Notes under the pieces: model-generated | What the model was told of the DNA's origin: nothing | Seen by the model: the letters and a program-made list of their open reading frames with translations, nothing else | The model's database searches: none | Program-made: the position numbers and the translations under genes | Assembly: GCF_004564275.1 (NCBI RefSeq) | Contig: NZ_SPDV01000009.1 | Span: 62,001-126,000 of the forward strand | From: Sphingomonas parva (ex Maeng et al. 2020) | GTDB lineage: Bacteria > Pseudomonadota > Alphaproteobacteria > Sphingomonadales > Sphingomonadaceae | DNA: 64,000 bases | Direction of reading: 5' to 3' | Shown: piece by piece, positions 20,687 through 58,427 of the stretch | How positions within the stretch are numbered: position 1 is the stretch's first letter | Layout of the letters: every line of letters begins with the position of its first letter

Positions 20687-21238
20687 TCATTGCGCGGCAG
20701 GGGCCGCGGCTGCGGCCTCGAGCTGGGCGGCCGTCAGGCTGGTGACGAGGCCCGCCTGACCGAGGCCGACCGCGGTGCGCGGCAGGCGCACCGACTTGCC
20801 CGACGCCAGCTTCAACGTCACGGTCTCGGCATCGGCGGCCTCGATCGTGCCGGCCGTCTGGCCGGCCGCGCCGAGCACGGCCGCACCCGGCTTGATCGCG
20901 GCGTCGCGATCGGCGTTCTGCTTCTCGACCGCGGCATTCAGCTCCTCGCGCGTCAGCGCGAACAGCAACGCACCCTGATACGGCGTGACCGAGGTGCGCG
21001 GGATCGGCACCTCGTATTTGTCGGTCTTGACGATCAGGATGTCGCCCTCAACGCGGACGACCGTCCCGACCTCGCTGCCCTTGTCGTGCTTGACGACCGT
21101 GCCGGCTGCGATCGCAGCGCCCGGCTGGGCCGGCTGGGCCGGCTGGGCCGGCTGGGCCGGCTGGGCCGGCTGCTGCGCGGCAACAGGGGCGGCCGCGACG
21201 AGGCCGAGCACGAGCAGCGGAAGCGTGGATTTGTTCAC
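20687..21238 (-). CDS. secreted protein with PAQ repeats and PRC-like strands
   Basis: A 183-residue protein with a signal peptide (MNKSTLPLLVLGLVAAAPVAAQ), followed by (PAQ)-type tripeptide repeats encoded by a 9-bp tandem DNA repeat. The mature domain alternates two halves, GTVVKHDKGSEVGTVVRVEGDILIVKTDKYEVPIPRTSV and AAGQTAGTIEAADAETVTLKLASGKSVRLPRTAV. Each is a small beta barrel like those of PRC-barrel or 'preprotein translocase YajC-like' small strands. Similar proteins are common in sphingomonads. No function is known. Confidence 0.65.
   Translation of the reverse strand: MNKSTLPLLVLGLVAAAPVAAQQPAQPAQPAQPAQPAQPGAAIAAGTVVKHDKGSEVGTVVRVEGDILIVKTDKYEVPIPRTSVTPYQGALLFALTREELNAAVEKQNADRDAAIKPGAAVLGAAGQTAGTIEAADAETVTLKLASGKSVRLPRTAVGLGQAGLVTSLTAAQLEAAAAAPAAQ
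21123..21172. repeat. 9-bp tandem repeat GGCTGGGCC
   Basis: Five perfect copies of GGCTGGGCC plus a partial one, encoding the proline-alanine-glutamine repeats right after the signal peptide of the secreted protein. Such a repeat can change copy number by slippage without breaking the reading frame. Confidence 0.85.
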
Positions 21239-48850: not shown

Positions 48851-51817
48851 TCAGAAGTCGAACCCGATCCGTCCGCCGAGGACGAAGTGGTCCTGGTCCT
48901 GCGGACCGCTGTTGAGCTCGGCACGCCCGAACAGCCCGAGCTCGCCGCCCGCCGCGAGGGGGGTGGCGTAGAGCATCTCGCCGCTCAGTGGCCGCTTGCG
49001 GCCCGAGAGGCTGAACGTCTGCTCGGCGAGGCCGAGGCTGCCGGTCTCCCGATCGATCACCTGCACGGAGGTGTAGGAGAGCGAACCGCGCTCGACGTGC
49101 AGCGGCTGCGACACGGAGAGGCGCAGGGCGTCAGCCTCGCCGAAGATCGAACGCTTGCTCAGCGCGGCGGCGAACGCGGTGCTGAGCACGCCGTCGCCGC
49201 TGGTCGCCAGGCCCTGCTCGCCGACCATGCCCGAACGCGTGCGTCCGCCGGTGGCAGAGAGAGCGAGAGTGACGTGGCGGCCGATCTCAGCCGATGCCCC
49301 GAACGTGATCGTGTCGCTCACCGCGCCCTGATCGAGGTCGCTCTCGTAGCGCGACTGCACGCCGAGAAGGCCGTTCGCCTCGTTAACCCGGGCATAAGCG
49401 GCGCTGACGGTGAGTCCGGGAGCTGCCTTGTGGGCAATGCGCACGTTCAGTGCCTTGGCCTTGAACGGATCAACCCCGTCGAAGGCAAGCCGCTCCTCGT
49501 CCGAGCGCCATCTACGCCGATGGTCGAGATGCTGGCTGGTCCAGCCGAACGAGACGGTGGTGCCGGCGCCCAGCGTCGCGTCGACGGCCGCGAACGGTCC
49601 GCCCGAAGCGAGGCCGAGCAGCGGGTTGACGCCGCCGGCGGTTCCGTAATCCGAGCTCAGGCCGAGCCCGTTCATCCCGTTCATCGCCATGCCGCCCTGG
49701 CCGAAGCCGGCGCTGAAGCCGAAGCGCTGCTCCGGGCTGGTCAGGCGCAGCCACGACTGGGCCATGGGCGAATAGCCCTGGCGGATGAGGTTCGCATCGG
49801 GGCTCAGCGAGGCAATGCCCGCCTGCCAGCCGCCGCGATCCGGGCTGGAAAGCATCGCGACGTCGGTGAAGCCGCTGCCGCCCTTGATCCAGTCCTTCAT
49901 CCGCTGCTCTACGAAGCGCTGGAAATATTCCGAGGCGCCCGTGAGCGTGCCGACCTTGCCGACCAGTGCGCTGGACAGCGGCACCGCGAAGTCGCGGAAG
50001 GTGCCGCCGATCGGCTCGTACAGGTGGTAGTAGACGCCGTCGGCTTCCCAGGTGGTCTGGACGCCGGCCGCGCGCACCTGGGCTGCCAGCATCTCGGTTT
50101 TAACGCCGCCCTTCATCTCGAAGAAACGGAGCGTGTTGAAGTCGAGCGGCGACTGGGATGCGGTGACGTCCAGCATGCCGTGGCCGTAGACCGGGTCGAC
50201 GCCGGGAGCGCCGAGGTCGCGGGCCGAGCGCAGCATGATGTCGACCGTTTCCTTCGGATAATTGGCGAGCCACGGCCAGCGATCGTGGAGCAGGGTGATC
50301 GCTCCCGAGACGAGCGGCGCTGCGAACGAGGTGCCGCTACGACGGATGAAACCGCCGTCGCCGTCCGGAAGCAGGATCAACTCACCCGGCGCGACCATGA
50401 AATTGTTCATCAGCGTGTCGCGACAGAGCAGGCCATTGGTGAAGCACGCGGTTCCGGGCCGGTTCGAGAAACTGGAGATGTTCCCGGAGGGATCGACCGA
50501 TCCCACGACGATCATCGCGGGCGCGTTCTTCAGATCCCAGGTGATGTTGGTCAGCTGGGTCGAGCCGTCGTTGCCGGCGGCGATCACGAAGACCATCTTC
50601 GTGCCGGCGCTGGCCGGATCGGAGAAGGCGGCAACCTGCGGATCGGCGAAGACGTTCTTCCATTCCGGATGCAGCGTGAAGCCCGGCACGCCCAGCGACA
50701 TGTTGATGACGCTCGCGCCGCGCGCACCGAGAGCGACGATGCCGTCCCTCACCGTCGCGAACGACGTGGTATTGCTCGCGTCATACGGATTGAACGCGAC
50801 GACGCTGGCGTTCGGCGCAATTCCCATCACGCCCTGGCCGTCGTGCGCCGCCACCATCAGGCTCGCCACGCCGACGCCGTGGCCGCCGACCACGGCGGAG
50901 CCGCCGCCGGAATAGGCGATGTTGTCGGCAAGGTCCGGGTCGCCCGAAGCCGTGGCGTCGATAAGCCCGATGATGCTGTCCGCGCCGGAGCCCTGCTGCT
51001 GGGTGATCGCCGGAGTCCAGCGCACGGCGGGCATCCAGTGATCGACCCGGTCGATCCCCGTGTAGCCCATCAGCGTGTCGTACCAGTCCAGCACGAACTT
51101 GGCGCGCTCGGACGCAGTCAAGCGCTGGAGCGTGGCGCCATCGGTCGGATCGATGCCGTAGCGGGCGAACAGCGGGGCCGCGAAAGCCTCGTCGAACGAC
51201 TTGCCGGTCGCCTTGCCGATCGATGCACCCCAGGCAAGCTCGGTCTGCGACATCATCTCGTTGAGCTTCGACTCCAGCGTCGGGGCCGCGAGCGGATCGG
51301 CGAGCAACGGCGTGGTCTCGCGCCAGAAGATCCCGAAATTCGTCCAATAGTGACCGATATGGGAGAGAGACTGGGCGCTCCCGTCGAACGGCTGGATCAC
51401 GTCGCCGAACGGCTCGCCGCCGATGAACGGCTGGATGACATCACCGTCTTCCCCGCCGGTGCCGGCGAAAGGCTGGATGACATCGCCGAACGCGTCGCCC
51501 CAGAATTCCATGACGTTGCCGGTGAACGGCTGGATGACGTCGCCGAAGGCTTCGCCGCTGCCCGCAAAGGGCTGGATGACGTCGCCGTCTTCCCTTCCGG
51601 TTCCAACGAACGGCTGGATCACGTCGCCGAATGCGTCGGCCGTGTTCCAGAAGGGCTGGAGGATCTCGCTGTGCGGCTTCAGTACCGGCGCGGTCGAAGG
51701 CGCTGCCGGCTTCGGCGTCAGTTTGATCGACACCAACTGTGCGTTGGCGGCCGTTCCGACCGACAAGCTGCTCAGAGCTGCCCCCGTCAGCAGGAGCGTA
51801 GCGAGTTGTTTGCGCAT
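48851..51817 (-). CDS. S8 autotransporter serine protease with GDVIQPF repeats
   Basis: A 988-residue protein. The signal peptide is MRKQLATLLLTGAALSSLSVGTAANA (start ATG 51817 preceded by GGGGGAATGGGACT). Residues 51-144 carry repeats of GDVIQPF. The subtilisin domain has the catalytic Asp287 (IGLIDATASGDPDL), His313 (GGHGVGVASLM) and Ser497 (RRSGTSFAAPLVSGAI), with an AAGNDG segment between. The C-terminal 260 residues form an autotransporter beta-barrel ending with the strand HFVLGGRIGFDF, whose last residue is aromatic. The passenger would be exposed or released at the cell surface. It lies divergent from the double-glycine peptide gene, with 480 bases between, and may process or defend against the peptide. 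Confidence 0.9.
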   Translation of the reverse strand: MRKQLATLLLTGAALSSLSVGTAANAQLVSIKLTPKPAAPSTAPVLKPHSEILQPFWNTADAFGDVIQPFVGTGREDGDVIQPFAGSGEAFGDVIQPFTGNVMEFWGDAFGDVIQPFAGTGGEDGDVIQPFIGGEPFGDVIQPFDGSAQSLSHIGHYWTNFGIFWRETTPLLADPLAAPTLESKLNEMMSQTELAWGASIGKATGKSFDEAFAAPLFARYGIDPTDGATLQRLTASERAKFVLDWYDTLMGYTGIDRVDHWMPAVRWTPAITQQQGSGADSIIGLIDATASGDPDLADNIAYSGGGSAVVGGHGVGVASLMVAAHDGQGVMGIAPNASVVAFNPYDASNTTSFATVRDGIVALGARGASVINMSLGVPGFTLHPEWKNVFADPQVAAFSDPASAGTKMVFVIAAGNDGSTQLTNITWDLKNAPAMIVVGSVDPSGNISSFSNRPGTACFTNGLLCRDTLMNNFMVAPGELILLPDGDGGFIRRSGTSFAAPLVSGAITLLHDRWPWLANYPKETVDIMLRSARDLGAPGVDPVYGHGMLDVTASQSPLDFNTLRFFEMKGGVKTEMLAAQVRAAGVQTTWEADGVYYHLYEPIGGTFRDFAVPLSSALVGKVGTLTGASEYFQRFVEQRMKDWIKGGSGFTDVAMLSSPDRGGWQAGIASLSPDANLIRQGYSPMAQSWLRLTSPEQRFGFSAGFGQGGMAMNGMNGLGLSSDYGTAGGVNPLLGLASGGPFAAVDATLGAGTTVSFGWTSQHLDHRRRWRSDEERLAFDGVDPFKAKALNVRIAHKAAPGLTVSAAYARVNEANGLLGVQSRYESDLDQGAVSDTITFGASAEIGRHVTLALSATGGRTRSGMVGEQGLATSGDGVLSTAFAAALSKRSIFGEADALRLSVSQPLHVERGSLSYTSVQVIDRETGSLGLAEQTFSLSGRKRPLSGEMLYATPLAAGGELGLFGRAELNSGPQDQDHFVLGGRIGFDF
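51386..51667 (-). repeat. GDVIQPF protein repeats at the N-terminus of the S8 autotransporter
   Basis: Six copies of GDVIQPF and one EILQPF occur in 94 residues, separated by 8-18 residues of two kinds (GxGxExxx- and FxGEAFGD-like). The alternation of FGDVIQPF and EDGDVIQPF blocks shows duplication of a two-part module. No known ligand- or calcium-binding motif matches. Confidence 0.85.
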
Positions 51818-52297
51818 AGTCCCATTCCCCCGAAATATTGGGTCCGAAATGGACGATGCGCCGCTAAGCAATTCTAATCTGTGCTGGTTAATCGATTTCG
51901 ACTCGGGATCGCCGCAGTCCTTTTTCACCAGACGTTTACCATGAAGCCGCGGAAAGTATTTTTTGGCGCTTTTCCTGCGTTTGCAGGCTAGTGAATCCGC
52001 GGCTTTTCCTCAAAAGCTTTTGTTAACCACGGGAAAGTGGCCGATCGAGGTGCGTTCCCGCTCGGGAAAAAGCGTTCATTACCGCCGATACGAGCGGCCC
52101 GGCATCAACCTTTCCGCTGCTTGTTTCATCGGACGAGCCCATCCGGACAGCGTCCTTCCGCCAGCCCAACGGGAAGCTCGCGAAACGTCCCACTTCGGTA
52201 CGCTCAAAAATGACCCCTAGGCATCTTCGACGCGAATCATAGGCTCCTGCAGCGGCGCATGAGACAGAGAGCGCCAGATGCGAACGGGAGACGTCAG
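51818..52297. other. AT-richer divergent intergenic region
   Basis: 480 bases between the S8 autotransporter (reverse) and the leader-peptide gene (forward). It is visibly AT-richer than the coding DNA, with T-runs (51959-51964), the perfect palindrome CAAAAGCTTTTG at 52011-52022 and two copies of GCTTTTCCT. A short frame at 51963-52220 has no good start and I do not call it. The region must hold promoters in both directions and is a plausible target for MucR-like AT-tract binders. The ribosome binding site of the peptide gene is GGGAG at 52286. Confidence 0.5.
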
Positions 52298-52474
52298 ATG
52301 CGTGATCTTACGACAGCAGAAATCGGGCACGTCTACGGAGCCGGCGGCAAGGGCCGCAGCAGCTGCAAGCCCAGCCCCTGCAAGGGCTCGCGCAGCAAGG
52401 GCTCGAAGAGCAAGGGCTCCAAGAGCAAGGGGTCCAAGAGCAAGGGCTCGCGCAGCAAGGGCCGCTGCTACTGA
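52298..52474 (+). CDS. double-glycine leader peptide with a cationic KGSKS-repeat core (microcin-like)
   Basis: A 58-residue peptide. The ATG has GGGAG seven bases upstream. The leader MRDLTTAEIGHVYGAGG is 17 residues, matches the pattern of class II microcin and colicin-V type leaders (M-R-x-L-T-x-x-E-I...V-x-GG), and ends in GG as the C39 peptidase cleavage site. The core, 41 residues, begins KGRSSCKPSPC, then has period-five units of KGSKS/KGSRS and ends KGRCY. It holds 11 lysines, four arginines, no acidic residue and three cysteines (core positions 6, 11, 40). A C39 exporter lies in the same cluster. I do not recognise the core from any described bacteriocin. Confidence 0.8.
   Translation: MRDLTTAEIGHVYGAGGKGRSSCKPSPCKGSRSKGSKSKGSKSKGSKSKGSRSKGRCY
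52382..52456 (+). repeat. 15-bp tandem repeat encoding KGS(K/R)S
   Basis: Five consecutive 15-base units (AAGGGCTCGCGCAGC, AAGGGCTCGAAGAGC, AAGGGCTCCAAGAGC, AAGGGGTCCAAGAGC, AAGGGCTCGCGCAGC) and a partial sixth. The first and fifth units are identical, and the others differ mostly at synonymous positions or at K/R. Copy number could vary between strains without changing the frame. Confidence 0.9.
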
Positions 52475-52592
52475 GCAAGTCGTGCCGCCCGCTCGTCCGG
52501 CCGCGCCGCGCCGGGCGGGTGGCGCAGCTTAAGGGAATGACAATTCCGGCCGCTTATCCTCTGCGTCGCTCGAAACCAACGGGAGCGGGCTC

Positions 52593-53558
52593 TTGAAGAA
52601 AAGCAGTTCGGAGCTGGCGCGCGGCGGCGAGCCGCCACTCGATGCGGTCCAAGCCGGCGAATGGCTCGTCTGGCTCCTCGGCCAGCCGCATCTCTCCGAC
52701 TATCTGAACTTCGTGCGCGACAAGGTGATCGACGGCGATCGCATCAGTCCGCGGCTCCTCGCCGACGAATGGCGCCTGGCTAACGACCTCTATTATGAAC
52801 TCGAGCAGGGGGAAGCCGGCGCTGCGGACGGGGCGGAGTGCCTTCCGATCGGTCCCGATCTCGCAACACTGCAGCGTTCGGTCCTCGAGGATCGCTATTT
52901 CCTCGAGAGCTTCGACACGCTTCCGGTGGAAATCCGGATGGTGGAACTCTCCCGGCTCGTCGTGTCCCAGTCGAATATCGGCTGCGACTTTGCCGAGGGC
53001 CTGCAGAGGACCTTGCCCGATCCACGCGACGCCGAAGCCCTGTTCCGCTTCTGCCTGCCGCTGGACCGCTCCCAGGCGCCGGTCCGGGTTCGCAGGAGCG
53101 GCAAGGACCGTTATGTCTTCACTTCGCCGTCCACCGACTTCCGCCTTCACCCTGCGGCCATTCTCGAGGCTGGCCAGGTAACGGGTCTGAAGTCGTTCGG
53201 ACCGGTCGCGTCGATCCTCGCCTTTCCGGTCGGCTTCGGCTCCAATTTTCTCTCGGTGGTCCGCAGCGAGGAGCGCCTGCTGTTGCAGAACGGCTACCAT
53301 CGCGCCTTCGCCTTGCTCTCCGCCGGGGTTACGCATGCGCCCGCTGTCGTGCAGACGGTGACTCGCAAGGACGAGCTGCGCCTCGCGGCCAGTGACGATG
53401 TCTGCGAGGACCCGGCATTCTATTTCCGTGCCGCGCGACCGCCGCTACTGCGTGATTTCCTCGACCCGCGGCTAGGGAAGAGGCTGCGCGTCCGGCCGAT
53501 GGAGACGACCATCGAGATCGAGTTCAAGACCCGCAGCTCCAGCGGCGCGTTGATCTGA
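52593..53558 (+). CDS. protein with ParB/sulfiredoxin-like motif, possible peptide-system partner
   Basis: A 321-residue protein. TTG 52593 is the start, since no ATG lies near and GGGAG is eight bases upstream. The N-terminal half is helical (WLLGQPHLSDYLNFVRDKV, ADEWRLANDLYYELEQGEAG). The middle contains VEIRMVELSRLVVSQSNIGCDFAEGLQ. Residues about 225-255 read LLLQNGYHRAFALLSAGVTHAPAVVQTV, which fits the 'DGxHRxxALxxxGxxxxPxxV' box of ParB/sulfiredoxin-fold proteins. That fold includes nucleases and serine or cysteine-sulfinate kinases. The gene lies 118 bases past the leader peptide and ends nine bases before the convergent transporter. Its role in maturing or immunising is inferred from position only. 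Confidence 0.6.
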   Translation: MKKSSSELARGGEPPLDAVQAGEWLVWLLGQPHLSDYLNFVRDKVIDGDRISPRLLADEWRLANDLYYELEQGEAGAADGAECLPIGPDLATLQRSVLEDRYFLESFDTLPVEIRMVELSRLVVSQSNIGCDFAEGLQRTLPDPRDAEALFRFCLPLDRSQAPVRVRRSGKDRYVFTSPSTDFRLHPAAILEAGQVTGLKSFGPVASILAFPVGFGSNFLSVVRSEERLLLQNGYHRAFALLSAGVTHAPAVVQTVTRKDELRLAASDDVCEDPAFYFRAARPPLLRDFLDPRLGKRLRVRPMETTIEIEFKTRSSSGALI

Positions 53559-53567
53559 CACGCCGCG

Positions 53568-55706
53568 TCAGGCCGTGCGCAGGGCTTCCGGTCGCCTGAC
53601 GCGGCGATCCTCCACCAGCGCCATCCGACCGTCGATCAGTCGGAAGACGATCTCCGCCCGCTCGACCAGGATCGGGCGGTGGGAGATCACGACACGCGTG
53701 GCCGAGAGTCCGGCGAGCATGTCGGCGATCGCCTGCTCGTTCTCCTCGTCGAGGTTGGCGGTGCCCTCGTCGAGGAACAACGCATCGGGATCGCGGTAGA
53801 GCGCCCGCGCGAGCATCACGCGCTGACGCTGGCCGGACGACAAAGCGGCGCCCATGTCTCCGATCAGGCTCTGGTAGCCCATCGGCATCGCCTCGATCGT
53901 ATCGTGGATCCGCGCGAGCTTCGCGACCTGCTCTATCGCCCGCTGGTCGGGCGCCGGATCGAAGAAGGCGATGTTGTCGGCGAGGGTGCCGGTGAGCAGC
54001 TGATCGTCCTGCAGCACGGCGGCGATGCGGGCGCGCCAGTTGGATACGGTCGCCGGCGTCAGGGGCTTGCCGTCCACCAGCAGGCGGCCGCCGGTCGGCG
54101 TCAGCAGGCCGAGCATGATCCGCATCAAGGTGGTCTTGCCGGCACCCGAAGCGCCGACAATGGCGACGTAGCTGCCGGCGGGAATGTGGAACGACATGTC
54201 GCGCAGCACAGGCGCCTCATCGGGGCCGTAGGCGAAGGTCAGGCCCTCGGCGCGGATCCCCGGCGCGGGGAGTATCTCCGTCCGCGGGGAAGCCGGCAGC
54301 ACGTTCTCACGCGGTTCGGCGACGATGTCGGATAGCCGATCGAGATGAAGGTGGAGCAGCCGCCATCTCTCGGCATGGTCTATCAGAGACGTCGCGCTGC
54401 TCATGAAGCTCGATCGGTAGGACAGGAAGGCGAGCATCAGGCCGACCGTCATCTCGCCGGCGATGATGGCGAGCGCGGCGACGTAGACGACGAACAGGAT
54501 TTGGCCGGCGTAGAGGATGCTCTCCACGAGGCGGCTGGCAATCTTGTAGATCTGGCTGCGGTAGCGGGCCGAGACAACGTCGGCATAACGGTTGCGCCAT
54601 CCGCTCTCCCGCCGCGCCTCGTGCACGTGGAGCTTGATCGCGCGCATGGCGCGGATGCTCTCGAGCAGGAAGGTCTCCTCGTTCGCCCGGGCGAGGATCT
54701 CCTCCTCGGTGCGCCGTCGCAGGGCCGGATAGATGGCGAAGCGGAACGCGATGTATAGGCCTGTGAAGAGCAGCACGAGCAGCATCAGCTTGACGCTGAT
54801 CAGGGCCATGACGACCAGCGTGGTCACGGCGAGGAGTGCGTCGATCAGCGCGTTGACCAACCCTTCGGTAAGGATGGACTGGATCGGCTGGGTCGATCCT
54901 ATGCGCGACATCAGATCGCCGACGTGGCGGCTCTCGAAATAGTTCATCGGCAGGCGCACCAGGTGTCGGAACACGTTGCCGATCAGCTGGAACGACATCG
55001 ATTGGCCGAGCGTCAGCACCACCCAGGCGCGGAGCGCCTGGATGACGGCGTTCAGCGCGTAGACGATCCCGAACCCGACGACGAGCAGCCCCATCAGGCC
55101 TGCATCACCCTGGGCTATTGCCTCGTCGACGCTCAGCTGCAGGAAGAAGGGCAGGGCAAGCGCAGTCGCTTGCAGCAGCAGGGATAGGACGATCAGCTGC
55201 AGGATGGCGCCGCCATAGCCGGACATGCGCGTCCAAAGATCGGCGAGGCGGGTGCGCACCCGCGCATCGACCGGCCGGAAGACTGCGGTCGGGCTGAGCT
55301 CCAGCGCAACGCCGGTGAAGTGTCGGCTCAGCTGCGGGAGGCCGAGCGTGCGTCGGCCGACCGCGGGATCGAGGATCGTCGCGCGTTCGCCCGCAACCTG
55401 CTCGAGGACGACGAAGTGGTTCAGGTCCCAGTGCAGGATCGCCGGCAGCTGCAGCTTGCCCAATTCGTCGAGGTCGAGGCGGAGCGCACGAGGTGCCAGC
55501 TCCAGCTCGGCGGCGACGTCGATCAGCTGCGCCAGCGTGGCACCCTTCATCGATGTGGGAAATTTACGGCGCAGCCCGCCGACATTGACACGGTGGCCGT
55601 GATGCGCGGCGACCATGGCGATGCAGGTCAGGCCGCACTCCGCGGCCTCGGATTGCAGCATCGGCCGAACCCGGCTCGACCAGGGCCAATCGATGCCGCC
55701 GCTCAT
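53568..55706 (-). CDS. C39-peptidase ABC exporter (bacteriocin-type, CvaB/LagD-like)
   Basis: A 712-residue protein with three domains. The C39 peptidase (residues 1-130) has MLQSEAAECGLTCIAM with catalytic Cys24, WDLNHFVVLE with His97 and TILDPAVG with Asp113, so the triad is complete. Six transmembrane helices follow (about residues 165-430). The ATPase has Walker A GASGAGKTT, signature LSSGQRQRV, Walker B ALFLDEGTANLD and the switch histidine in VVISHRPI. Such exporters cut double-glycine leaders and pump the core. The stop of the upstream adaptor gene overlaps the start by four bases. The leader peptide at 52298 is the evident substrate. Confidence 0.93.
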   Translation of the reverse strand: MSGGIDWPWSSRVRPMLQSEAAECGLTCIAMVAAHHGHRVNVGGLRRKFPTSMKGATLAQLIDVAAELELAPRALRLDLDELGKLQLPAILHWDLNHFVVLEQVAGERATILDPAVGRRTLGLPQLSRHFTGVALELSPTAVFRPVDARVRTRLADLWTRMSGYGGAILQLIVLSLLLQATALALPFFLQLSVDEAIAQGDAGLMGLLVVGFGIVYALNAVIQALRAWVVLTLGQSMSFQLIGNVFRHLVRLPMNYFESRHVGDLMSRIGSTQPIQSILTEGLVNALIDALLAVTTLVVMALISVKLMLLVLLFTGLYIAFRFAIYPALRRRTEEEILARANEETFLLESIRAMRAIKLHVHEARRESGWRNRYADVVSARYRSQIYKIASRLVESILYAGQILFVVYVAALAIIAGEMTVGLMLAFLSYRSSFMSSATSLIDHAERWRLLHLHLDRLSDIVAEPRENVLPASPRTEILPAPGIRAEGLTFAYGPDEAPVLRDMSFHIPAGSYVAIVGASGAGKTTLMRIMLGLLTPTGGRLLVDGKPLTPATVSNWRARIAAVLQDDQLLTGTLADNIAFFDPAPDQRAIEQVAKLARIHDTIEAMPMGYQSLIGDMGAALSSGQRQRVMLARALYRDPDALFLDEGTANLDEENEQAIADMLAGLSATRVVISHRPILVERAEIVFRLIDGRMALVEDRRVRRPEALRTA

Positions 55707-56950
55707 TTTCGCATCGCCCGCAGAACCGGATCGAGGAACACTTCCCAGAGGCGTCGGCGCTCCAGCAGCAGATTCGCCGAAAGCGTCATCCCGGGTCGCA
55801 ACGCCTGCTCCGCGGCGCCGCCGCCGGAGGCGGGCCCCTGCTGGAGATCGACGCGGATGCGGAACACCGGCTCTGTGATGCCGAGGCCGGGATCGAGCGA
55901 GCGGGGATCGATCGGAACCTCCGAGACCCAGCGAACGACGCCGCGGCCGGCGCCGTAGCGCTGGTAGGGAAAGGCGTCGAACATCAGCCGCACGTCCTGG
56001 CCGGGCTTGACGAAGCCGATCGCGCGCGAGGGGGCGTAGAGCTGGACCTCGGTCCTGCCGGCGGGCGGGCGAATGGTGACCAGCGGAGCGCCGGCCTCCG
56101 CGCTTTGCCCCGTTCGCGCGGCAATGTCCCCGACGACACCGCCGACCGGGGCGGTGAGGACGAGACGGTCGAGGCGAAGCAGGGCGGCGCGCTGATCGGC
56201 AAGCGCGGCACGCTGCGCGACGATTTCCGCCTGCGACTGCTCGGAATCGATCCGCCGCGACGCGATCTGCGTGTCGAGCCCGCGCAGCGTCTCGCGCTGG
56301 GTCGCCAGCCGCTCGGCGAGCCGCTCCAGCTCCAGCCGCTGCGAAAGGAGCTCGCCGCGGCTCTCCTCGACCTGACGCTGCGTACCGGCGCCTTCCTCGG
56401 CGAGACGGACGGCCCGCCGATGATTGGCCTCGGCAAGGGCGATCTGGCCGCTGACCAGGCTGCGCTGACGTTCGAGCGAGGTGATCGACGCGATCAAGCC
56501 GGTCTTCTGCTGGGCGATCCCGCTTGCATCGGAGGCGCCGAGGCTGGAGGCGAGCGCCTGCTGGCGGGCGAGGGCAGCGTCCTGCCGTTCGAGCTCGGCG
56601 AGCCTGCCGGAGAGGCCTTCTCCTCCCGCGTCGCGACCGACGGCGAGCGAGAGCGCGACCAACGGTGCGCCCGCCGCGACCTCAGCGCCCTCCTCGACAT
56701 AGACTTCGCGGACCAGACCGGGTGATGGGGCGGCGACATGGGCGATGCCGCTTGCCTGCGCGACGACGCCCTTCACCTGCACGCGACTGGCATATTGACC
56801 GAGGGCGAGCAGCACGATCAGCAGGGCCGCGGCCCCGGCAAGCACGGCCGTGTACAGACGCGAGCCGGGCGGCACGGCCGCGACGACCGTGCCGGTGAGC
56901 CGATCGCGTCCCGCTTCGATCACCTCCTGCCGGAAGAGCCTGGTCGTCAT
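55703..56950 (-). CDS. HlyD-family periplasmic adaptor (membrane fusion protein)
   Basis: A 415-residue protein from MTTRLFRQEVIEAGRDRL, with one N-terminal transmembrane helix (YTAVLAGAAALLIVLLALG, about residues 33-51). A biotinyl-lipoyl part is split (VAQASGIAHVAAPSPGLVREVYVEEGAEVAAGAPLVAL and LVLTAPVGGVVGDIAARTGQSAEAGAPLVTI), with a long coiled coil between (about residues 115-265). The end is a beta-barrel domain. This is the CvaA/HlyD layout that links an ABC exporter with an outer-membrane channel. It overlaps the exporter gene by four bases (ATGA), so the pair is translationally coupled. Confidence 0.93.
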   Translation of the reverse strand: MTTRLFRQEVIEAGRDRLTGTVVAAVPPGSRLYTAVLAGAAALLIVLLALGQYASRVQVKGVVAQASGIAHVAAPSPGLVREVYVEEGAEVAAGAPLVALSLAVGRDAGGEGLSGRLAELERQDAALARQQALASSLGASDASGIAQQKTGLIASITSLERQRSLVSGQIALAEANHRRAVRLAEEGAGTQRQVEESRGELLSQRLELERLAERLATQRETLRGLDTQIASRRIDSEQSQAEIVAQRAALADQRAALLRLDRLVLTAPVGGVVGDIAARTGQSAEAGAPLVTIRPPAGRTEVQLYAPSRAIGFVKPGQDVRLMFDAFPYQRYGAGRGVVRWVSEVPIDPRSLDPGLGITEPVFRIRVDLQQGPASGGGAAEQALRPGMTLSANLLLERRRLWEVFLDPVLRAMRK

Positions 56951-57074
56951 TCCCCGTTGCAACCGCCGTCGCTGTCTCGCGGAAATCTCTAGAGGCTAAT
57001 CCTCAAGGCGCGGTTAAGGCGGCCGAAACCAGCGCTTTCGCTCATTCTTTACCGCCGCCGGTTATGGAAGGCCG

Positions 57075-58427
57075 ATGATCCGCCTCCGCCCGACGATTGC
57101 GCTGCCGCTCGCCTGCGTCGCCTGCGCGCCGACGCCGCAGCTCGCGATCGCACCGAACATCCTTTCTCAGGAGTGGCAACAGGCGCCGCCACCGTTGGCC
57201 GGAGAGGCTGCGGACTCGTGGGAGGATTTCGCATCGCCGGAGCTGGCCACACTCGTCGCCCAGGCGCGCGACAGGAACGTAGACATCGCCATCGCTCGCG
57301 CCCGCATCGTGCAGGCGCGAGGCGAGCTGAGGCTGGCGCGCGCAGCGGCCCTGCCAATGCTCTCCGCCAGTGCTGCTGGCTTGACGGGGGAGCGAAGCGG
57401 CGGCGGGACGGCAGGACCGTTGAACGACATCCTGTCCGTCGGCCCCGAGATCAGTTGGGAAGCCGACCTCTTCGGCGGCGCAGCGGCCGGCAGAAAGGCG
57501 GCGCGCGCGCGGCTCGCGGCGGCCGTCTTCGATCGTGACGCGATCGCCCTGCTCGTCGAGGCGGAGGTTGCGCGCGCCTTTTTCGATCATGCCGCGCTCG
57601 GCGATCGTATCGCTCTCGTCGATCGCTCGCTCGACAACGCGCGCGAGCTCGAGCGGATCATCCTCGTCCGGGTTCGAGAGGGCGCAGCGACGCAGGTCGA
57701 CGCGGGCCGCCAGAGCGTCGAGGTTCGGCGCATCGAAGCGCAGCGATCGGAGCTGGTCGAGGCCCGGCGTCACACGGCCAACGCGCTGGCCGCGCTCACC
57801 GGTGAGGAAGCGCCTCGCTTCGCCGCGCCGCGTGCCGCGCTCGGTGATCTGGTCTTGCCGTCCTTTGCCCCGGGTCAGCCGAGCGACCTGTTGCTCCGCC
57901 GGCCGGACGTGCGGGCCGCCGAGGCCCGCATCGCGGCAGCGGAAGGCAATGTCAGCCAGGCCCGCGCCGCCTTCCTGCCACGCCTGACCCTGTCGGGCAG
58001 CTCGATGATCGAGGCTGCAGCCGGCCCGGTGCAGCTGGTCACCACCCTCGGGGCAAATCTGCTTGCGCCGATCTTCGACGGTGGCCGGAACAAGGGACGG
58101 CTGCTCGTCGCGGAAGGGGCGCAGCACGAGGCGGTGGAGACGTACCGTGGTACCTTGCTCACCGCGCTGCGCGACGCAGAGGATGCGCTCGCCGCGTCCG
58201 AGGAAGCCGAGCGGCGGCGACAGCTTCTCGCCGCCACGCTGGAGGAGGCGCGGCGCACCGCCAGCCTGGCCAGGCGCCAGTTCGTGGAAGGGGCGGCGGA
58301 CCTCCAGACCGTGCTCGATGCCGAGAGGTCTTTGCTTGACGTCGAGCAGGAGCACGCCCTTGCCGTCCGCGATCGCCTGGCTGCGATCGTGACTCTGGTG
58401 ACCGCGATGGGCGGCTGGCCGGTCTGA
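57075..58427 (+). CDS. TolC/NodT-family outer-membrane efflux lipoprotein
   Basis: A 450-residue protein with a lipoprotein signal (MIRLRPTIALPLACVACAPTP, lipobox VAC). The two repeats of the outer-membrane efflux fold are visible: residues about 55-240 (SPELATLVAQARDRNVDIAIARARIVQARGELRLARAAALPMLSASAAGL) and about 260-450 (LLRRPDVRAAEARIAAAEGNVSQARAAFLPRLTLSGSSMIEAAAG). The end LDVEQEHALAVRDRLAAIVTLVTAMGGWPV is the family's usual closing helix and GGWP. It is divergent from the adaptor gene with 124 bases between, and provides the third part of the tripartite type I exporter. Confidence 0.92.
   Translation: MIRLRPTIALPLACVACAPTPQLAIAPNILSQEWQQAPPPLAGEAADSWEDFASPELATLVAQARDRNVDIAIARARIVQARGELRLARAAALPMLSASAAGLTGERSGGGTAGPLNDILSVGPEISWEADLFGGAAAGRKAARARLAAAVFDRDAIALLVEAEVARAFFDHAALGDRIALVDRSLDNARELERIILVRVREGAATQVDAGRQSVEVRRIEAQRSELVEARRHTANALAALTGEEAPRFAAPRAALGDLVLPSFAPGQPSDLLLRRPDVRAAEARIAAAEGNVSQARAAFLPRLTLSGSSMIEAAAGPVQLVTTLGANLLAPIFDGGRNKGRLLVAEGAQHEAVETYRGTLLTALRDAEDALAASEEAERRRQLLAATLEEARRTASLARRQFVEGAADLQTVLDAERSLLDVEQEHALAVRDRLAAIVTLVTAMGGWPV

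Follow-up and report, generated by a model that had tools for sequence, protein, structure and literature searches.

The described systems closest to the locus reported here are class II microcins and other double-glycine (GG) bacteriocins, with which it shares a GG leader, a C39-peptidase ATP-binding cassette (ABC) exporter, an HlyD adaptor, and an outer-membrane channel. The locus lies at positions 52298-58427 of a 64,000-nucleotide stretch of Sphingomonas parva DNA (G000:C9:62001-126000; "the window" denotes this whole stretch) from a draft genome of 4,487,171 bases in 111 contigs, and it combines a short precursor peptide, a partner protein (P0002), and the export genes. Unlike class II microcins, it specifies a hydrophilic, KGS-repetitive core and the partner P0002; no immunity gene was recognized among the open reading frames (ORFs) listed near the locus, in which no systematic search was made.

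Further groups of described proteins offer partial parallels. EbfG1-4 and PteB of Synechococcus elongatus, small GG-motif proteins and a C39 transporter, serve biofilm formation rather than killing (PMC4997328); the likeness lies in the small GG-motif cargo and the C39 transporter, by description and not by sequence comparison, and the available passages of that paper do not mention a P0002-like partner. Peptide Ser kinases tailor lasso peptides, and one such kinase comes from Sphingobium; according to the available passages, these kinases carry a His-Lys-Asp-Asp motif (PMC9266682). A tailoring kinase beside a ribosomal precursor is, on that description, an established arrangement and a precedent in kind, and P0002 is not matched to these kinases by any comparison made. 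Finally, the silaffins of diatoms are described as Lys/Ser-rich, with KXXK clusters, phosphorylated Ser, and hydroxylated trimethylated Lys, in the parts of PMC4557024 consulted. Neither such a cargo family with such a partner nor a bacterial silaffin-like peptide of this kind was found described in the open-licence literature, among the matches listed.

Here, comparative analysis of the locus and its relatives is used to delineate a precursor-P0002 pair that recurs in other bacterial genomes and on plasmids. The whole is read, with a probability of about 0.4, as a dedicated secretion system for a basic, Ser-rich repeat peptide that P0002 would mature and that would serve as a surface or matrix polycation.

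A type I export system with a basic repeat peptide

The precursor, P0002, the C39 exporter, the HlyD adaptor, and the NodT-type channel were all confirmed, in agreement with the first-pass annotation, which had described all parts of a type I secretion channel together with a GG substrate. The precursor ORF (52298-52474, + strand) encodes 58 residues, of which the GG leader MRDLTTAEIGHVYGAGG occupies 52298-52348 and the core 52349-52471. An alternative, longer in-frame start exists at 52259, and the MRDL start is the one common to homologues. A recount of the 41-residue core bore out the features given earlier, namely, a net charge of +15, no acidic residue, and three Cys (core positions 6, 11, and 40); the core also has 13 Ser, five KGS units, and not a single A, V, I, L, M, F, or W residue. 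The KGSKS repeats correspond at the DNA level to a 15-bp (15/30-bp) tandem array (52380-52462, + strand), so that part of the regularity of the window core may arise at the DNA level; the composition persists in homologues built from other units (KS, SN).

The exporter (53568-55706, - strand; 712 residues) contains the three domains and the catalytic triad by which C39 peptidase-containing ABC exporters are recognized (Pfam C39, 1.2e-32; ABC_membrane, 6.5e-34; ABC_tran, 1.5e-30). Cys24, His97, and Asp113, previously noted as intact, are present, as are Gln18, one Walker A motif, and an SSGQR signature. The NHLP/proteusin equivalog TIGR03796 scored 450 bits on this exporter, short of its 853-bit cut-off. 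The HlyD-type periplasmic adaptor gene (55703-56962, - strand) overlaps the exporter gene by 4 bp (ATGA), as had been described, and the TolC/NodT-type outer-membrane channel (57075-58427, + strand), also identified by Pfam, scores 247 bits on the NodT model (cut-off, 210). The exporter, adaptor, and channel make up the tripartite set of type I secretion. Among 28 exporter matches in the same genome, only the window exporter spans the whole query; the runner-up (contig C15) is 30% identical and begins at query residue 57, past the catalytic Cys. Because the parts are intact and the leader is conserved, the core is very probably exported through this exporter, adaptor, and channel.

Pairing of the precursor with P0002 across genomes and plasmids

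Neither the precursor nor P0002 has a Pfam or NCBIfam match, consistent with the earlier view of the system as undescribed, and the precursor has no match to PDB sequences at E 10. P0002 was used as search bait for precursor homologues. Nine loci, the window included, hold a P0002 homologue with 44% identity or more: two in genomes of the window's own family (L022 in G281 and L023 in G218), two in alphaproteobacterial metagenome-assembled genomes (L012 and L013), and four on plasmids, namely, pMNOD02 of Methylobacterium nodulans (L083), pBSY18_3 of Blastomonas sp. RAC04 (L084), and plasmids of Paracoccus liaowanqingii (L085) and Rhodobacter sp. CZR27 (L086), which represent three orders by record taxonomy. 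P0002 is rare, being found in 3 of 298 genomes of the family (own included), in 1 of 9 genomes of the genus of G281, and on four of 72,556 plasmid records. A five-member P0002 profile had matches in 4 of 396 genomes at the level of the order, including two distant relatives, and in 1 of 289 at the level of the class, namely, the genome studied here.

In all nine loci, a short ORF with a basic core lies directly upstream of P0002 and begins with a leader of the form MR(D/E)L...GAG(G/S). Four loci have a GG cleavage site and five a GS site; each leader is thus of the double-glycine type as defined here (ending in GG, GA, or GS, beside a C39 exporter, and kept in relatives). The first-pass annotation had named the lack of homologous precursors beside C39 exporters in relatives as evidence that would count against it; such homologues were found, and this check thus left it unrefuted. 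The nine cores have net charges of +11 to +16, 7 to 13 Ser, and at most three hydrophobic residues. KGSKS repeats occur in the window, L012, L022, and L084, and KGS/KS mixtures in L013 and L023; the M. nodulans core consists of KS/KH runs, and those of Paracoccus and Rhodobacter of SN repeats placed after an Arg/Lys block. A Cys lies within the last two residues, or right before a final aromatic residue, in six of nine cores, and both Rhodobacterales cores are without Cys.

A composition filter (core of at least 70% K/R/S/G/N, net charge of at least +8, at least six Ser, and at most four hydrophobic residues) selected a single ORF at every one of the nine P0002 loci, whereas 16 exporter loci lacking P0002 yielded none. 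These 16 are the fetched subset of 26 such exporter matches (out of 29 in all, from 28 of 298 genomes); L068 is a second exporter of G281, a genome with P0002 elsewhere. The contrast is strong, and it is not a calibrated probability, the thresholds having been chosen after the positives were known and L022 and L084 being close relatives.

In a midpoint-rooted tree of 24 exporters, eight of them with the precursor-P0002 pair (the cut-off L012 exporter was left out), the pair falls in two exporter clades and its distribution needs three changes. One clade holds the window, L013, L022, L023, and L084 together with the pair-less L067, and the other holds the plasmid copies L083, L085, and L086. 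The occurrence of the pair on two exporter lineages argues that the conserved unit is the precursor with P0002 and not the exporter. Nested within the first clade, the G207 exporter (L067) is 64% identical to that of the window, and both P0002 and the KS precursor are absent in G207. A different GG-type ORF (L067:8003-8158, + strand), in which MRELTPAETTEVSGG precedes a core with KHPAPP repeats at its end, and a Stealth-type phosphotransferase (L067:6445-7458, - strand; PF11380, 7e-30) lie beside the exporter.

The recurrence of a homologous precursor beside P0002 in 9/9 loci indicates that the window precursor is a genuine gene. An alternative would be that the precursor ORF is an open frame of low complexity arisen by chance, the exporter serving another peptide. 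The same genome does hold a second GG precursor (G000:C29:80144-80248, also L038:1387-1605, - strand), comprising MRTLTDLEVRHVSGAGG and an NNNGYGNG...PPPGNSG core of net charge 0, and on the Blastomonas plasmid the second ORF of the locus (L084:3516-3698) encodes a precursor of this type as well. The repetitive DNA of the window core would suit a chance frame as well. In the closest precursor pair, L022 and L084, codon differences are 12 synonymous to 5 nonsynonymous, splitting into 7 to 1 in the leader and 5 to 4 in the core, which suggests that the core sequence is weakly constrained in this pair. That nine of nine P0002 loci have an ORF with this leader at the corresponding position, across three orders among the named plasmids, makes a chance frame very improbable; the second GG precursor suggests that the window exporter may serve more than one substrate.

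Core composition also bears on whether the product is a cationic antibacterial peptide, a bacteriocin in the wide sense, directed at the negatively charged envelope of competitors, with P0002 providing immunity or assisting maturation. A GG leader with a C39 exporter is the usual bacteriocin pair, the core is strongly cationic, and plasmids, a common site of bacteriocin genes, carry four of the nine loci. With no hydrophobic residue in the window core and three at most among the nine cores, however, a membrane pore is unlikely, and P0002 has no recognized immunity-type features, so that a bacteriocin function appears rather unlikely. GG peptides found by regular expression beside the related exporters L076, L079, and L080 are hydrophobic and Gly/Ala-rich, unlike the P0002-associated cores; the contrast is partial, since GG peptides at, e.g., L081 and L082 are not of that type. 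The earlier label "microcin-like" is, as a class assignment, not sustained by these comparisons, and the interpretation to which it belonged is partly supported overall.

Several search results were rejected. Among ten contig loci retrieved with P0002, two (L012 and L013) are true relatives and eight are seed artefacts, the latter being Nitrospira "relatives"; the seven that were translated (all except L019) each share the seed NIGCDFAE; the proteins that carry it are presumably of the HDOD type. In viral contigs, 40 stretches fit the search pattern, and none is a relative. Weak precursor matches numbered eight, from 7 of 296 genomes. The known members G000:C9 and G218 account for two and the G000:C29 precursor for one; the remaining five (L033-L037) were dropped, as translation shows no leader-core ORF.

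A ParB/sulfiredoxin-like segment in P0002

P0002 (52593-53558, + strand) is a protein of 321 residues with a TTG start and contains the segment NGYHR (residues 233-237); it had earlier been designated a ParB/sulfiredoxin-motif protein. The 11 known members, of which G328 and G497 are the most divergent (29% and 19% identical to the window protein, respectively), share E118, Q126, C154, R228, N233, H236, and R237 without exception. GxHR, kept in all 11, supplies the GxxR (P motif) characteristic of the ParB/sulfiredoxin fold within a homologous segment. When the 11-member alignment was compared by hhalign, the NGYHR segment aligned onto the GERR motif (GxxR) of ParB over 45 columns with a score of 34.1 and a probability of 48%. 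This exceeds all 120 column shuffles (best, 21.2), the reversed alignment (11.5), and the best of 11 unrelated blocks (17.7), thereby upholding the motif assignment. Strands precede the NGxHR segment in a low-confidence structural model (predicted local distance difference test [pLDDT] of 32). PF23719 (VapB antitoxin-like) matches 3 of 11 members (L030:8639-9472 on the - strand, L083, and L085) below its cut-off (best, 0.00065); the match lies over the GxHR region and is taken as motif resemblance. In a comparison of the P0002 profile with PDB sequences, the best match, at E 0.42, was an unrelated deacylase. A predicted ParB/sulfiredoxin-type fold is considered likely for P0002.

As described in the available part of a 2025 survey (PMC12704722), the ParB fold binds a variety of nucleotides and is found in the serine kinase SerK, in its homologue SbnI, and in sulfiredoxin; P0002 shares with these proteins the GxxR-type motif segment (NGxHR) and differs in lacking a Pfam ParB_N match. 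The described versatility of this fold as a nucleoside triphosphate-binding module (PMC12704722) would also suit a ParB-like regulator, a nucleotide switch and not an enzyme, accompanying a peptide secreted without modification as an adhesive, matrix component, or signal, much as C39-exported GG-motif proteins are reported to be needed for the Synechococcus biofilm (PMC4997328). Pfam matches no DNA-binding domain in P0002, however, and its tracking of the precursor over two exporter lineages suits a partner of the peptide itself, as it would a gene regulator. On this evidence, a purely regulatory P0002 with an unmodified peptide is considered unlikely.

The strict co-occurrence of P0002 with the precursor suggests that P0002 acts on the peptide, and its role as a dedicated modifier is given even odds. 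That the modification is phosphoryl transfer to Ser, as the predicted ParB-like fold and the Ser-rich substrate together suggest, is possible but more doubtful.

Accessory genes and neighboring features

Accessory enzymes vary among the loci. A 2-oxoglutarate (2OG)-Fe(II) oxygenase is encoded in four of nine P0002 loci; those of L022, L023, and L084 are of the PF13661 type, and that of L012 (P0007) differs and has a Sel1 repeat. The window locus has no adjacent 2OG oxygenase, and its genome has no match to the oxygenase P0006 or to PF13661. Four weaker matches to P0007 (best, 35% identity) lie on other contigs of the genome, and such a distant oxygenase could act in trans on the window peptide. 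Directly after the exporter, the M. nodulans plasmid encodes a FemAB-type protein (L083:14805-15836). In the Paracoccus and Rhodobacter plasmid copies, the exporter is followed by a response regulator and a histidine kinase/ATP-binding protein (L085:14314-16570 and L086:14442-16549, respectively).

A long RNA hairpin, a possible attenuator, is predicted between the precursor and P0002 in all nine loci (52477-52530, + strand, in the window), with a folding z of -1.51 in the window and -1.66 to -5.43 elsewhere (L022, -5.43). Equally good folds were obtained for 15, 1, 0, 6, 9, 8, 8, 7, and 0 of 200 shuffles in the nine loci; the hairpin stands out individually at L012, L013, and L022 only, GC-rich DNA folding well in any case. 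A terminator scan did not flag it.

Elsewhere in the window, a 1025-residue S8 subtilase-domain protein (PF00082; 48851-51928, - strand) has N-terminal GDVIQPF repeats, encoded by tandem arrays at 51386-51638 and 51524-51660. At 21121-21172, CCGGCTGGG forms a perfect 9-bp tandem repeat of 5.8 copies.

Discussion

The sequence of events proposed for this locus begins with a precursor probably made in excess, the intergenic hairpin possibly damping expression of the downstream gene. The leader would bring the precursor first to P0002, a putative cytoplasmic maturase that may act as a nucleotide-dependent phosphotransferase on the Ser residues of the repeats. The leader would then deliver the precursor to the C39 domain of the exporter, where cleavage after GG (or GS) would occur, and the HlyD adaptor and NodT-type channel would take the core outside. 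There, the polycationic core, which would be zwitterionic if phosphorylated, may bind or condense anionic polymers of the cell surface or matrix. The absence of hydrophobic residues from the core favors a surface or matrix role over membrane killing, and such a role is judged about as probable as its negation.

Several results weigh against this proposal. ParB_N (PF02195) matches none of the 11 P0002 members at gathering score, and a search of the genome with PF02195 finds other loci and not P0002. The match between NGYHR and ParB spans 45 columns at 48% probability, and with the nine closer members alone the score falls to 27.8 (14%), with one of eight shuffles reaching 24.5. The AlphaFold2 model of P0002, built from three sequences, is unusable (mean pLDDT, 32). 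The two Rhodobacterales cores contain 7 and 9 Ser. The distant relatives G328 and G497 have no basic, Ser-rich GG precursor and, in the stretches fetched, no exporter match at E 1. P0002 could, moreover, be a regulator or an immunity factor.

Comparison with silaffins suggests an extension of the proposed maturation of the peptide by P0002. KGSK occurs three times in the window core and reproduces the KXXK spacing, a sequence resemblance only. The silaffin modifications described lead one to expect a phosphotransferase and a 2OG oxygenase, and the P0002 loci hold a candidate phosphotransferase and, in the four cases given above, an oxygenase. Silaffins differ in being diatom proteins with another leader and export route, and the window locus has no oxygenase beside it; the likeness is thus one of analogy, not homology. 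In its boldest form, the proposal would make P0002 the founder of a ParB/sulfiredoxin-fold family that phosphorylates Ser residues of KGS peptides, with Lys hydroxylation added at some loci, yielding a plasmid-carried counterpart of silaffins: a zwitterionic, self-assembling extracellular peptide that condenses on, or mineralizes with, silica, phosphate, or anionic polysaccharide. Taken jointly, these propositions are quite improbable.

The exporter and leader are of a known kind, and for the cargo family and its partner no family model was found in Pfam or NCBIfam and no description in the open-licence literature searched. In this conserved pair of cargo and partner, the cargo of a C39 type I exporter is not hydrophobic and does not obviously resemble a bacteriocin, which widens the known range of cargo of these exporters. 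If P0002 does modify the peptide, it would represent a new enzyme fold for ribosomal peptide tailoring in a directly testable system of one short gene, one partner, and one exporter; and, were the product to condense on mineral or polysaccharide, silaffin-like material could be made by bacteria in a genetically simple way.

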